Source: an uncultured bacterium
Lineage (GTDB): Bacteria; Bacillota; Clostridia; Lachnospirales; Lachnospiraceae
Assembly (NCBI GenBank): GCA_947651225.1
Contig: CANSYK010000005.1
Span: 1 to 64,000, forward strand
Length of the DNA: 64,000 nucleotides
Reading direction: 5' to 3'
A program made the translations under genes and the position numbers. The notes beneath the pieces were generated by a model. It did no database searches and had not been told where the DNA came from. It saw only the letters and a list, made by a program, of their open reading frames with translations. Positions 3,235 to 42,999 of the stretch are shown here, one piece after another; within the stretch, counting starts at the first letter, position 1, and every line of letters starts with the position of its first letter.

Positions 3235-3312
3235 AATACAATTTGTAATTATTTTAAGGAACTGCAGGAAAATACCTGCTCAAGATTGCGCAGGATATTT
3301 CTTTGCGTGTGC

Positions 3313-3360
3313 AGGTCAAAAAGTTTTGACATAGTGGGCTATGTCAAAACTTTTTGACCT
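3313..3360. terminator. Long perfect hairpin
   Basis: Two 22-base arms (3313-3334 and 3339-3360) are perfect reverse complements around the loop TGGG. It follows the nuclease remnant by about 80 bases. The arms contain runs of A and T, so it could act as a terminator in either direction, although its length and perfection are also typical of a small palindromic element. Confidence 0.6.
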
Positions 3361-3414
3361 ATGCAATTGGAGAAATAGACAAATCAAGATGTAACAGTTA
3401 TTTTTTTACAGTCC

Positions 3415-39654: not shown

Positions 39655-40104
39655 CTATTTAATATCTGCACCATTCACAGAAACCTCCATCATTCCTTTT
39701 AGCTTTAAAAACAGTTCAGGATACCGCCTTTTCATCCGAATCGGCTGTAACTCTTTATCCAGAAAACAGTGACCTGTCTTTCCGGTTGTACACAATTCCC
39801 CTTTGCCTGTTTTGTATACCTCATAAGAAACTTCCATTTTAATACCATCGTATTTGGTCATTCTGGTATGAATGGTTATTTCTTCATCAAAGCGCAGCGG
39901 CACCAGATACCGGCATTCTGCAAAAGTAACAGGAATAATAATTCCCATTTCCTCCAAAACCCTGTAATCCAGCCCAACCTTTTTCATCATATCCAGCCTT
40001 GCTTCCTCAAACAGTCGGATATAATTGGAATGATGGATAATTCCCATCTGGTCTGTTTCATAATAATTCAACCTTCTGCTATATTCTGTATGGCTATCTT
40101 CCAT
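39655..40104 (-). CDS. Acyl-CoA thioesterase (4HBT/YbgC type)
   Basis: 149 residues, hot-dog fold. The N-terminal active-site region YYETDQMGIIHHSNYIRLFEEAR has the Asp and Tyr/His pattern of 4-hydroxybenzoyl-CoA-thioesterase relatives. Substrate unknown. Ribosome site AGGAGG. Confidence 0.88.
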   Translation of the reverse strand: MEDSHTEYSRRLNYYETDQMGIIHHSNYIRLFEEARLDMMKKVGLDYRVLEEMGIIIPVTFAECRYLVPLRFDEEITIHTRMTKYDGIKMEVSYEVYKTGKGELCTTGKTGHCFLDKELQPIRMKRRYPELFLKLKGMMEVSVNGADIK

Positions 40105-40208
40105 TTTAACACATCCTCCTATCGATTTCCATTCTATTTCTATATATTATTCCAAATTCTTTCTTTCCGTCAAGCCCTGATATATTAGTGTTCGTTTCAT
40201 AACCATCA

Positions 40209-40250
40209 GTTACTGTTCACTCCGAACAGTAACTGCAGCGTTTTCAATAG
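40209..40250. repeat. Family C repeat
   Basis: GTTACTGTTCACTCCGAACAGTAAC-type hairpin followed by GCAGCGTTTTCAATAGC. The stretch 40105-40496 otherwise holds the promoter and RNA described next. Confidence 0.65.
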
Positions 40251-40266
40251 CTAAAAAGAAAATACA

Positions 40267-40295
40267 TTGACATATTTCCAAGTCACGTGTACAAT
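40267..40295 (+). promoter_or_regulatory. Strong sigma-A promoter for the structured RNA
   Basis: TTGACA, 17 bases, TACAAT. Predicted start of transcription near 40302. Confidence 0.8.
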
Positions 40296-40301
40296 AATAA
40301 C

Positions 40302-40476
40302 AGCAACAGGCAACGGCGTGTGTCTGTTTAAGTGTTGAAGCATAGCAGCGTACCGGAAAGCCTTGCTATGCAGAGCTTCCAGTAGGGGTTGTGCAATAAC
40401 CTCAAACCGGGGTAGGCATCAATTGCCGAAAGAAAATGCCCAGAGCCGCCTTACGCATATGCAGGGCGGCTTTTTT
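40302..40476 (+). ncRNA. Candidate structured RNA of about 175 nt
   Basis: Bounded by a near-ideal promoter and a strong terminator (AGCCGCC/GGCGGCT plus six T, 40444-40476), with no reading frame inside. Visible helices include GAAGC...GCTTC with an inner GCATAGCA/TGCTATGC stem (about 40336-40380), a GGGTT/AACC stem, and GGCAT/ATGCC (about 40412-40442). It resembles no riboswitch class I can recall. It could be a standalone RNA or, because the terminator ends about 20 bases before the next start codon, an attenuating leader for the PBECR4-like gene. Confidence 0.6.
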
Positions 40477-40496
40477 ATGCAACAGAAAGGATTACT

Positions 40497-41087
40497 ATGG
40501 ATAAACTTGCCATTTGCGTTCACACATTTGAAAAATTACTGGATATACAATACCATATTATTATTGGACGGAAGGGAAAAACTACAAAGCTTTGCATCAG
40601 CTTCTCAAAACTTGACTTCCATCATCTGATGGGACTGGGAAAATTAAAGGACTTACGAATCGCCACACGTAATAGAGGTATTGTATTTGATGAAATCCTT
40701 TCTGGAAAAATCACTTATGAAACAATCTCTAAAAGCCATTACCTACACCTGATTGAAAACCGTTTTCGTCCTCTTGCACACATAGAAACGCTATTTGATG
40801 ATAACAGATTAGTATTCCGTTACAACATGAAAGCAAATCAATTTTCAGTAATTGATGCAGATTATCTGTTATCTACTCCATACGCCAAAAACGACATTTA
40901 TACCTTTCTTGCTAAACAAAAAGAAACTGGACGATACTTTTGCCGCTCCTTTTTTCCAAAAGAACAGAAAGACTACACCAAAGGACAGGCTATTTATACT
41001 ATGCTTTATAAAGAAAAAATCTTTCTGTCAACAGGATTAAATCAAATTCAGTATAATCGTCTTACCACCAAAAAAACAGAAAAATAA
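40497..41087 (+). CDS. PBECR4-like nuclease-fold protein
   Basis: 196 residues matching, by pattern, the PBECR4 group (phage-barnase-EndoU-colicin E5/D-RelE-like): FHHLMGLGKL, IVFDEILSGKITYETISKS, HLIENRFRPLAHIETL and the late KDYTKGQAIYTMLYKEKI. The group is linked to mobile elements and presumed RNA cleavage; activity here is unproven. The ATG at 40497 has AAAGGAT right after the terminator hairpin of the upstream RNA, so its expression may depend on read-through. Confidence 0.65.
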   Translation: MDKLAICVHTFEKLLDIQYHIIIGRKGKTTKLCISFSKLDFHHLMGLGKLKDLRIATRNRGIVFDEILSGKITYETISKSHYLHLIENRFRPLAHIETLFDDNRLVFRYNMKANQFSVIDADYLLSTPYAKNDIYTFLAKQKETGRYFCRSFFPKEQKDYTKGQAIYTMLYKEKIFLSTGLNQIQYNRLTTKKTEK

Positions 41088-41166
41088 AACACTCTGTACT
41101 AATATTAGGTAAAAATTGAAATCCGTTTAATTAAGCAAACATTCAAACAATAAAGTGAGGAAACCT

Positions 41167-42999
41167 ATGAATTTAATTACAGCAGAACATCTGACCCATT
41201 CCTATACGGAAAGAGTCCTTTTTGAAAATGCAGCATTCAGCCTGAATGAAAAAGAAAAAGTCGGAATTATCGGCATTAACGGCACCGGAAAATCTACTCT
41301 CTTAAAAATACTGGCCGGAAAAGAAACCCCTGATAATGGCACGATTACCACCGGACGGAACCTTCGCATTGCCTATCTTCCACAGACTCCATCTTTTCAC
41401 GACAAAGAAACCACTCTGACAGCGGCACTTCCACCAGACAGTGAAATCGCTGTCTCCTCTGATGCTTATGAACCCGATGCGAAATCTTATCTGACAAAAC
41501 TTGGTTTTACCGACTTTAATCAGCAAGTTTTGGAACTTTCCGGCGGACAGAGAAAGCGCGTTGCCCTTGTGCGCACCTTGCTGACTCCCTGCGATGTGCT
41601 GATTTTAGATGAGCCGACAAACCATCTGGACAGTGCTATGTCAGAATGGCTAGAAGATTTTCTGAAAAGCTGGCGTAGCGCCTTGATTATGATTACCCAT
41701 GACCGATATTTTCTTGATAGTGTTGTAAACCGTATTGTAGAAATTGATAAAGGAAGCCTTTACAGCTATAGCTGCAGCTATCTGGAATATCTGGAGCGAA
41801 AAGCAGAACGGGAAGAAATTGCACAGGCAACGGAGCGGAAACGGCAAAGTATCCTGCGCAAAGAGATTGCATGGATACAGCGCGGCGCACGTGCACGCTC
41901 CACAAAACAGAAAGCTCATATCGCACGATATGAAAAACTGCGTGATATGAGCGCGCCAAAAACAGACCAGACAATTGAAATCACAGCAGGCTCTTCCCGC
42001 CTTGGTAATACTACAATCGAATTAGAACATCTTTGTAAAAGCTTTGATGGCAAACCACTTCTGTCTGATTTTTCCTATATCTTTTTGCATACAGACCGTG
42101 TTGGGATTATCGGCCCAAATGGATGCGGCAAATCAACTCTCTTTAAAATGATTACGGGAAAGGAACAGCCAGATTCCGGTACTGTCACAATCGGGCAAAC
42201 TGTTAAAATAGGATATTTTACACAAGAAAGTGAACCTATTGATCCTTCTGTCCGTGTCATAGATTTTATAAAAGAAGGCGGCAATATTATTCATACAAGC
42301 GAAGGAACCCTTAGTGCTTCTGTCATGCTGGAACGTTTCCTTTTTCCTCCAGACATGCAATATGCCCTTGTCGAGCGGCTGTCTGGCGGGGAACGGCGCA
42401 GGCTTTCCCTCCTCCGTATCCTGATGGAAGCCCCAAATATCCTCTTACTGGATGAACCGACAAACGATTTGGATATTACTACTCTGACTTTACTAGAAGA
42501 TTATCTGGACAGTTTTCATGGTATTGTTGTAACAGTATCACATGACCGCTATTTTCTCGACCGCATCTGTAACCGCATTTTTGCTTTTGAGGGAAATGGC
42601 ATACTGACACAGTATGAAGGCGGCTACACAGACTATAAAAATGCTTCCTCTGTGGAAATGAAATTAACAGACAGCGGACTTTCCGGTTCTTCTCCTTCTT
42701 CGGAAACGCCCGAAAAGACAACAAACCGACATAACTGGAAAGACGGACAGGAAAAAAAGAAGAAAATGTCCTATAAGGAACAGCGGGAATTTGAAACCAT
42801 AGAAGATGATATCGCCTCTTTAGAAGAACAAATAGAAAAGCTGGATTCTGAGATTCTGCAAGCTGCCCATGATTTCGTCCACTTAAATGAACTGACTGTC
42901 AAAAAAGACCAGTGCCAGTCCCTGCTAAATGAAAAAATGGAACGTTGGATGTACCTGGAAGAGTTAAACGAAGAGATTACAAGCAAACTAATACACTAA
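41167..42999 (+). CDS. ABC-F family ATPase
   Basis: 610 residues with two ABC domains and no membrane part: Walker A GINGTGKST and GPNGCGKST, signatures LSGGQRKR and LSGGERRR, Walker B LILDEPTNHLD and LLLDEPTNDLD. A charged linker (RARSTKQKAHIARYEKL) and a C-terminal coiled coil resemble Uup-type members. ABC-F proteins act on the ribosome, in quality control or antibiotic protection; which applies cannot be read from this sequence. The start at 41167 has GTGAGG. Confidence 0.9.
   Translation: MNLITAEHLTHSYTERVLFENAAFSLNEKEKVGIIGINGTGKSTLLKILAGKETPDNGTITTGRNLRIAYLPQTPSFHDKETTLTAALPPDSEIAVSSDAYEPDAKSYLTKLGFTDFNQQVLELSGGQRKRVALVRTLLTPCDVLILDEPTNHLDSAMSEWLEDFLKSWRSALIMITHDRYFLDSVVNRIVEIDKGSLYSYSCSYLEYLERKAEREEIAQATERKRQSILRKEIAWIQRGARARSTKQKAHIARYEKLRDMSAPKTDQTIEITAGSSRLGNTTIELEHLCKSFDGKPLLSDFSYIFLHTDRVGIIGPNGCGKSTLFKMITGKEQPDSGTVTIGQTVKIGYFTQESEPIDPSVRVIDFIKEGGNIIHTSEGTLSASVMLERFLFPPDMQYALVERLSGGERRRLSLLRILMEAPNILLLDEPTNDLDITTLTLLEDYLDSFHGIVVTVSHDRYFLDRICNRIFAFEGNGILTQYEGGYTDYKNASSVEMKLTDSGLSGSSPSSETPEKTTNRHNWKDGQEKKKKMSYKEQREFETIEDDIASLEEQIEKLDSEILQAAHDFVHLNELTVKKDQCQSLLNEKMERWMYLEELNEEITSKLIH

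Follow-up and report, generated by a model that had tools for sequence, protein, structure and literature searches.

Drum RNA upstream of PBECR4 genes: a candidate type III-like toxin-antitoxin system

The stretch analyzed here, called the window throughout, comprises 64,000 nucleotides of contig CANSYK010000005.1 from an uncultured bacterium of the Lachnospiraceae (GenBank assembly GCA_947651225.1). At positions 40267–40476 of its forward strand, a promoter and a terminator enclose a structured RNA of ~150 nt, and a gene for a PBECR4 protein follows. We identified this RNA as drum (Rfam RF02958), and from conserved gene order its partner appears to be PBECR4, an association newly recognized here. 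We propose that drum and PBECR4 probably form a type III-like toxin-antitoxin system, in which a predicted endoribonuclease (endoRNase) would be neutralized by the pseudoknotted RNA upstream of it and expressed through read-through of the terminator. Drum is one of many structured RNAs from comparative genomics without a known role, and a conserved protein partner yields a single testable claim. The literature searched contained no functional account of drum, RF02958, or PBECR4; that search did not cover the original description of drum, where a gene association may already have been listed, which leaves it uncertain whether the link to PBECR4 was first recognized here. In the passages concerned, drum is treated solely as an Rfam family or a subject of structure prediction, with additional covarying pairs in one case (PMC7657543) and a predicted K-turn in the other (PMC11974997), and neither passage names a function.

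RESULTS

Anatomy of the locus

The promoter is of the sigma-70 type (TTGACA-17-TACAAT, 40267–40295, + strand) and agrees with the consensus at 11 of 12 positions, with its boxes at 40267–40272 and 40290–40295 separated by a 17-nt spacer. It is the top-scoring of 11 promoter-like sites in 40000–41300 (chance mean, 4.5). The RNA ends in an intrinsic terminator (40444–40476, + strand), seen in the fold as a GC-rich hairpin (AGCCGCC...GGCGGCT, 40444–40471) followed by the T-tract TTTTTT (40471–40476). The terminator was detected using a purpose-made terminator test and was not listed by a simple terminator scanner. The folding energy of the RNA from 40298 to 40480 is -64.4 kcal/mol, with a moderate z of -2.4 versus shuffles. 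We checked open reading frames (ORFs) of at least 40 amino acids on the + strand, and none inside the RNA was convincing; the sole one over the RNA (40363–40629, TTG start, 88 amino acids) enters the PBECR4 gene out of frame. The PBECR4 gene itself (40497–41087, + strand) begins 20 nt after the T-tract and encodes a 196 amino acid predicted BECR-fold endoRNase, our proposed toxin. The original prediction, made from the sequence of this locus, of a stem-rich RNA without a frame, bracketed by a consensus promoter and a strong terminator and lying about 20 nt before a PBECR4-like gene, therefore holds in each of these parts. The only promoter seen upstream of the PBECR4 gene is that of the RNA, so the terminator must also attenuate the PBECR4 gene.

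Identity and structure of the drum RNA

The RNA had been called unassigned, which we can now correct. A cmscan search matched the drum core over its full length (40330–40444, + strand, model positions 1–112 of 112), with 94.1 bits where 43 is the gathering score, and because of this covariance model match we regard the RNA as more than a chance structure. Other regulatory RNA classes, such as 6S RNA and the raiA motif, were considered as well; only drum reached its gathering score, and the remaining cmscan matches were at chance level. Of the known classes, then, 6S and raiA, both raised in the original prediction, are not matched, and the established family drum is. The Rfam entry assigns drum the gene type sRNA and, in the output, gives no function or partner. 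Our analysis extends that entry by a 5′ hairpin beyond the model, by a pseudoknot with covarying pairs, and by the PBECR4 partner.

We built an alignment (A2) of 31 drum RNAs that takes in the 5′ hairpin and performed an unbiased scan for covarying helices. Compensatory changes were present in 26 of 34 pairs, which answers the original suggestion of looking for homologs and compensatory changes, and 84% of alignment cells were paired, versus 69% in shuffled and 30–42% in slid alignments. The extended model, R2, matches 40300–40446 (+ strand) at 128 bits (E = 1.6e-31), a score that is not independent since the window copy is among the 31 training sequences. The 5′ hairpin (AACAGGC / GTCTGTT, 40305–40328; A2 columns 7–13/24–30) stands upstream of the Rfam model and shows compensatory changes in five of seven pairs. 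It is followed by the long hairpin P2 (GCATAGCA / TGCTATGC, 40340–40371; columns 43–52/65–74), with nine of ten pairs compensatory, and by hairpin P3 (GGTT / AACC, 40387–40401; columns 90–92/104–106), which is nearly invariant.

Two pseudoknots connect the hairpin loops to strands further downstream. In the first, PK1 (40353–40410), CCGG of the P2 loop (40353–40356) pairs with CCGG at 40407–40410, joining that loop to the strand following CCUCAA; the Rfam consensus line leaves these positions unpaired, and all six pairs (columns 55–60/111–116) show compensatory changes. In the second, PK2 (40393–40439), GCA of the P3 loop (40393–40395) pairs with the linker TGC (40437–40439) directly 3′ of the A-rich GAAAGAAAA, and all four pairs are compensatory (columns 95–98/156–159). 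All of these elements lie on the + strand. No tandem repeat array was seen in the drum alignment, for which no dedicated repeat finder was run.

Linkage of drum and PBECR4

Our main sample consisted of 299 genomes of the window's bacterial family. It contains 32 drum matches in 27 genomes and 75 PBECR4 matches in 57 genomes. A PBECR4 match on the same strand follows 25 of the 32 drum RNAs, 14–142 nt on and mostly 57–74 nt before the start of the profile match. PBECR4 is present in 25 of the 27 genomes with drum (p = 1.5e-18 for chance). The other seven drum matches comprise six orphans and one at a contig end. A second, divergent drum occurs in the genome of the window itself, on another contig and preceding a frameshifted PBECR4. 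In a sample of 348 genomes drawn from across the phylum, drum occurs in three and PBECR4 in four; one distant genome (G657) carries drum and PBECR4 66 nt apart.

The linkage also holds in the opposite direction. A search by protein alone retrieved 21 plasmid records (19 Enterococcus, 1 Streptococcus, and 1 Planococcus) and 11 genome-contig loci. An Rfam scan of three plasmid and all 11 contig loci placed drum directly upstream of PBECR4 in 13 of 14. The lone exception starts at a contig end, so drum is present in 13 of 13 loci where the upstream DNA is visible, Enterococcus and Streptococcus plasmids among them. Among 14 control genomes, the sole PBECR4 match was in Lactococcus lactis.

The PBECR4 protein

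The window protein matches PBECR4 (PF18813) at 139.8 bits, against a gathering score of 27 (E = 1.7e-40). ToxN, CptN, and TenpN were considered as identities and set aside, as hmmscan lists PBECR4 alone up to E 0.1. An AbiF system was likewise rejected, since the window has no match to abiF RNA (RF03085) and the protein is PBECR4 and not Abi_2. Searches with PBECR4 found no match in the PADLOC defense-system library or in NCBIfam, nothing meaningful by sequence among solved structures, and only a weak match in PHROGs to a family of unknown function. AlphaFold2 models had a predicted local distance difference test (pLDDT) score of 92.7 for the window protein and 89.7 for the protein behind a second RNA type, B, described below. 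In the drum-linked proteins, F36, H43, G46, and R89 are invariant, and T168 is over 90% conserved. PBECR domains are described, in the part of the source that treats them, as predicted RNases with a conserved active-site His and a C-terminal Ser/Thr (PMC5512222); the conservation of H43 and T168 is compatible with such an active site.

RNA type tracks PBECR4 phylogeny. In a tree of 55 PBECR4 proteins, a branch with 100/100 support parts the carriers of drum and drum-like RNAs from those of RNA types B, C, and D, and the RNA labels require 6 changes, versus a shuffled mean of 26.3. We set the labels drum-like, C, and D by eye, with partial support from model R2.

Other RNAs upstream of PBECR4

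Most PBECR4 genes without drum are, as judged by eye, preceded by another unit of promoter, RNA, and terminator. For 51 of 74 PBECR4 matches, the 140 nt upstream contain a terminator-like site, as against 16 of 133 other ORFs of the same loci. The commonest non-drum RNA in this position is one we call B RNA, which matches no Rfam family. It is laid out as three hairpins (h1–h3), each followed by an A-rich linker (l1–l3). The loop and linker segments were hand-curated from a pattern listing and chosen by position, not by complementarity. The loops pair with the linkers in the order h1-l3, h2-l2, and h3-l1; all other combinations (h1-l1, h1-l2, h2-l1, h2-l3, h3-l2, and h3-l3) behave as shuffles. 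In an alignment of 19 sequences, paired cells make up 98.5%, versus 82% when shuffled and 17–36% when slid, and compensatory changes occur in 13 of the 14 pairs. Drum and B RNA therefore share an architectural logic, in which hairpin loops pair with linkers that follow A-rich runs; this does not imply homology.

With a covariance model of B RNA, we found the RNA ahead of PBECR4 in genomes as well as on plasmids and in phages, and some of these matches lie outside the training set. In the 299 genomes, the model matches at 32 places. A PF18813 match directly follows 19 of these, and the rest precede remnants of broken PBECR4 genes or are orphans with a terminator. One B RNA with PBECR4 is on contig C55 of the window's own genome (locus L004, genome G000), and further B RNAs adjoin PBECR4 or its remains at L035–L039, L043, L045, L053, L054, L077, L078, and L081. 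A 22-nt DNA motif of B RNA also retrieved viral contigs from IMG/VR; PBECR4-type ORFs follow the RNA in three, two of them confirmed by Pfam. The B-type protein, used as a query, had no match in the viral contigs, where the RNA motif did match. Locus L059 has two B RNAs within ~2 kb on opposite strands (1257–1405, + strand; 3235–3382, - strand), one before PBECR4 and the other before a different ORF.

RNA types besides drum and B were recognized by eye. Type C RNA consists of tandem GGTC[GGAACAG]AGACC hairpins whose loops look complementary to the next linker (L099, L116, L122, L124, and L126), and its loci stand upstream of another PBECR4 clade. At least two more layouts, outside the models we built, occur before PBECR4, at L088, L111, L114, L115, and L117 and at L119 and L131.

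Mobile carriage and gene decay

PBECR4 is found on plasmids of Enterococcus, Streptococcus suis, and Avibacterium (the latter 4.3 kb with five genes) and in Erysipelothrix phage phi1605. A tblastn search of the phage collection gave no PBECR4 of the drum type. On an Enterococcus faecalis plasmid (L065), drum and PBECR4 are followed by an AbiH family gene, with a PemK/MazF toxin gene nearby.

PBECR4 is often broken behind an intact RNA, and orphan RNAs are common. B or drum RNAs with a terminator and no intact PBECR4 behind them include L150, L155, L160, L172, L173, L175, and L108. Loss of the protein gene while the RNA persists is as expected if the RNA is an antidote.

DISCUSSION

A candidate RNA antidote

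The locus shares with type III systems an RNA in the antitoxin position upstream of a gene in the toxin position, one promoter, and a terminator between them. The RNA is also pseudoknotted, as seen in PK1 and PK2 of drum and in the loop-linker helices of B RNA, with compensatory changes. We favor an RNA-antidoted toxin because of this gene order, the precedent of abiF RNA, the enrichment of terminators before PBECR4, carriage on plasmids and phages, and decay of PBECR4 behind intact RNA. In such a system, the strong promoter would make drum RNA, and the terminator would stop most transcripts, with occasional read-through giving a little PBECR4 mRNA. The pseudoknotted RNA would bind the PBECR4 endoRNase and hold it inactive. 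Should the supply of RNA fail, through loss of the element, phage take-over, or a halt in transcription, unbound PBECR4 would cleave RNA and growth would stop. We infer the RNase activity and toxicity of PBECR4, its direct binding to and neutralization by the RNA, and its read-through expression.

Among the options raised in the original prediction, an RNA antitoxin is the best supported on comparative evidence, namely the two-way linkage, the clade-specific upstream RNAs, and an RNA that outlasts the protein. The same observations also give good support to the description of a standalone RNA with its own promoter and terminator. Beyond drum, we lean toward the broader view that the PBECR4 proteins are a large, hitherto unrecognized superfamily of toxins with RNA antidotes. 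On this view, a single lineage of endoRNases may have acquired or evolved several antitoxin RNAs of distinct structure (drum, B, tandem C, and further types) and been spread by plasmids and phages.

Several observations weigh against an antidote role. Six of the 32 drum RNAs, and also that of L108, are orphans with no PBECR4 adjoining them, and some drum RNAs might act alone. Conversely, no upstream RNA could be recognized for several PBECR4 matches that are weak or fragmentary (e.g., L120, L128, L133, L136, L139, and L146). Unlike classic type III antitoxins, drum does not consist of simple tandem repeats. The fold is also weakly tied to known RNases. Foldseek found no match in the PDB at E 0.001 or better for either protein model, and the VIA comparison gave RelE, HigB, and BrnT rows at Z of only 2.1–3.7, with YoeB and contact-dependent inhibition (CDI) toxins also among the low-Z rows.

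Alternative explanations

Drum could instead act in cis, as an attenuator or a riboswitch-like leader. A ligand, or PBECR4 itself, would then set how much transcription reads through into the PBECR4 gene, and the short RNA released would have no role of its own. A terminator 20 nt before the gene, with no second promoter seen between, is what such a leader would look like, as is linkage to a single gene family. However, orphan drum and B RNAs retain their terminator without a gene, and different clades of the PBECR4 family carry distinct RNA architectures, which suits protein binding better than ligand sensing. We consider a leader unlikely as the whole account. Some attenuation also belongs to the RNA-antidote model, so the attenuator of the original prediction survives as one part of the arrangement, given that the only promoter seen is that of the RNA.

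That Rfam types drum as an sRNA gene, and that orphan copies occur, would fit a trans-acting small RNA or another ribonucleoprotein, with drum as, for example, a decoy or a substrate or cofactor required for PBECR4 activity, and PBECR4 as the enzyme that processes drum or as its effector, not as a toxin kept in check. The constant position and spacing before PBECR4, carriage on plasmids and phages, and decay of the gene and not the RNA fit an antidote better, and we judge a trans-acting role improbable. Finally, PBECR4 is found on mobile elements, and drum and PBECR4 might be two cargo items of the same elements without functional contact. This is very hard to sustain and is already contradicted by the linkage counts and the tree, as order and spacing are fixed across very diverged genomes, RNA type tracks the protein tree, and other PBECR4 clades have replacement RNAs.

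Comparison with known systems

The type III systems ToxIN, CptIN, and TenpIN consist of a promoter, a structured or pseudoknotted RNA, an intrinsic terminator, and an endoRNase gene, and occur on plasmids and chromosomes (PMC5086642). The gene order of drum-PBECR4 is the same. They differ in the toxin, as the candidate in the window is PBECR4 with no Pfam match to the ToxN family, and in the RNA. The classic type III RNA is made of identical tandem repeats, whereas drum is one composite RNA and B RNA has three related hairpin-linker units. A precedent for the RNA is the abiF motif (RF03085), for which a role as a type III-like RNA antitoxin toward AbiF has been demonstrated in Clostridioides difficile (RCd22) (PMC12373285). 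Like drum, it is a structured Rfam motif in the order promoter, RNA, terminator, and gene; unlike PBECR4, AbiF/AbiD belongs to a Cas13-related family, and the RNA motif differs. AvcID, as far as the cited passage describes it, likewise combines an RNA antitoxin with a toxin unlike ToxN and acts in phage defense, but that toxin is a deoxycytidylate deaminase and not an RNase (PMC10511110). The PBECR domains of phage polyvalent proteins belong to the same predicted RNase superfamily, with the active-site His and C-terminal Ser/Thr; they are mostly fused within large phage or conjugative proteins or stand solo, and the portion of that source concerned with them mentions no linked RNA partner (PMC5512222).

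If the broader superfamily view is correct, it would give a function to the drum family and define several new noncoding RNA families. If the proposed pairing is right, type III-like RNA-antidote systems would extend well past ToxN-like, AbiF-like, and deaminase toxins, and would be common in the window's bacterial family as well as present on Enterococcus plasmids and in phages. PBECR4 would also provide a set of naturally occurring RNAs with different folds that inhibit a single enzyme family.

Neighboring features

An ABC-F type ATPase gene (41155–42999, + strand) begins 67 nt past the PBECR4 gene in the window. At L073, a GA-cis RNA (RF02987; 386–473, - strand) lies a few kb from a drum and PBECR4 locus.
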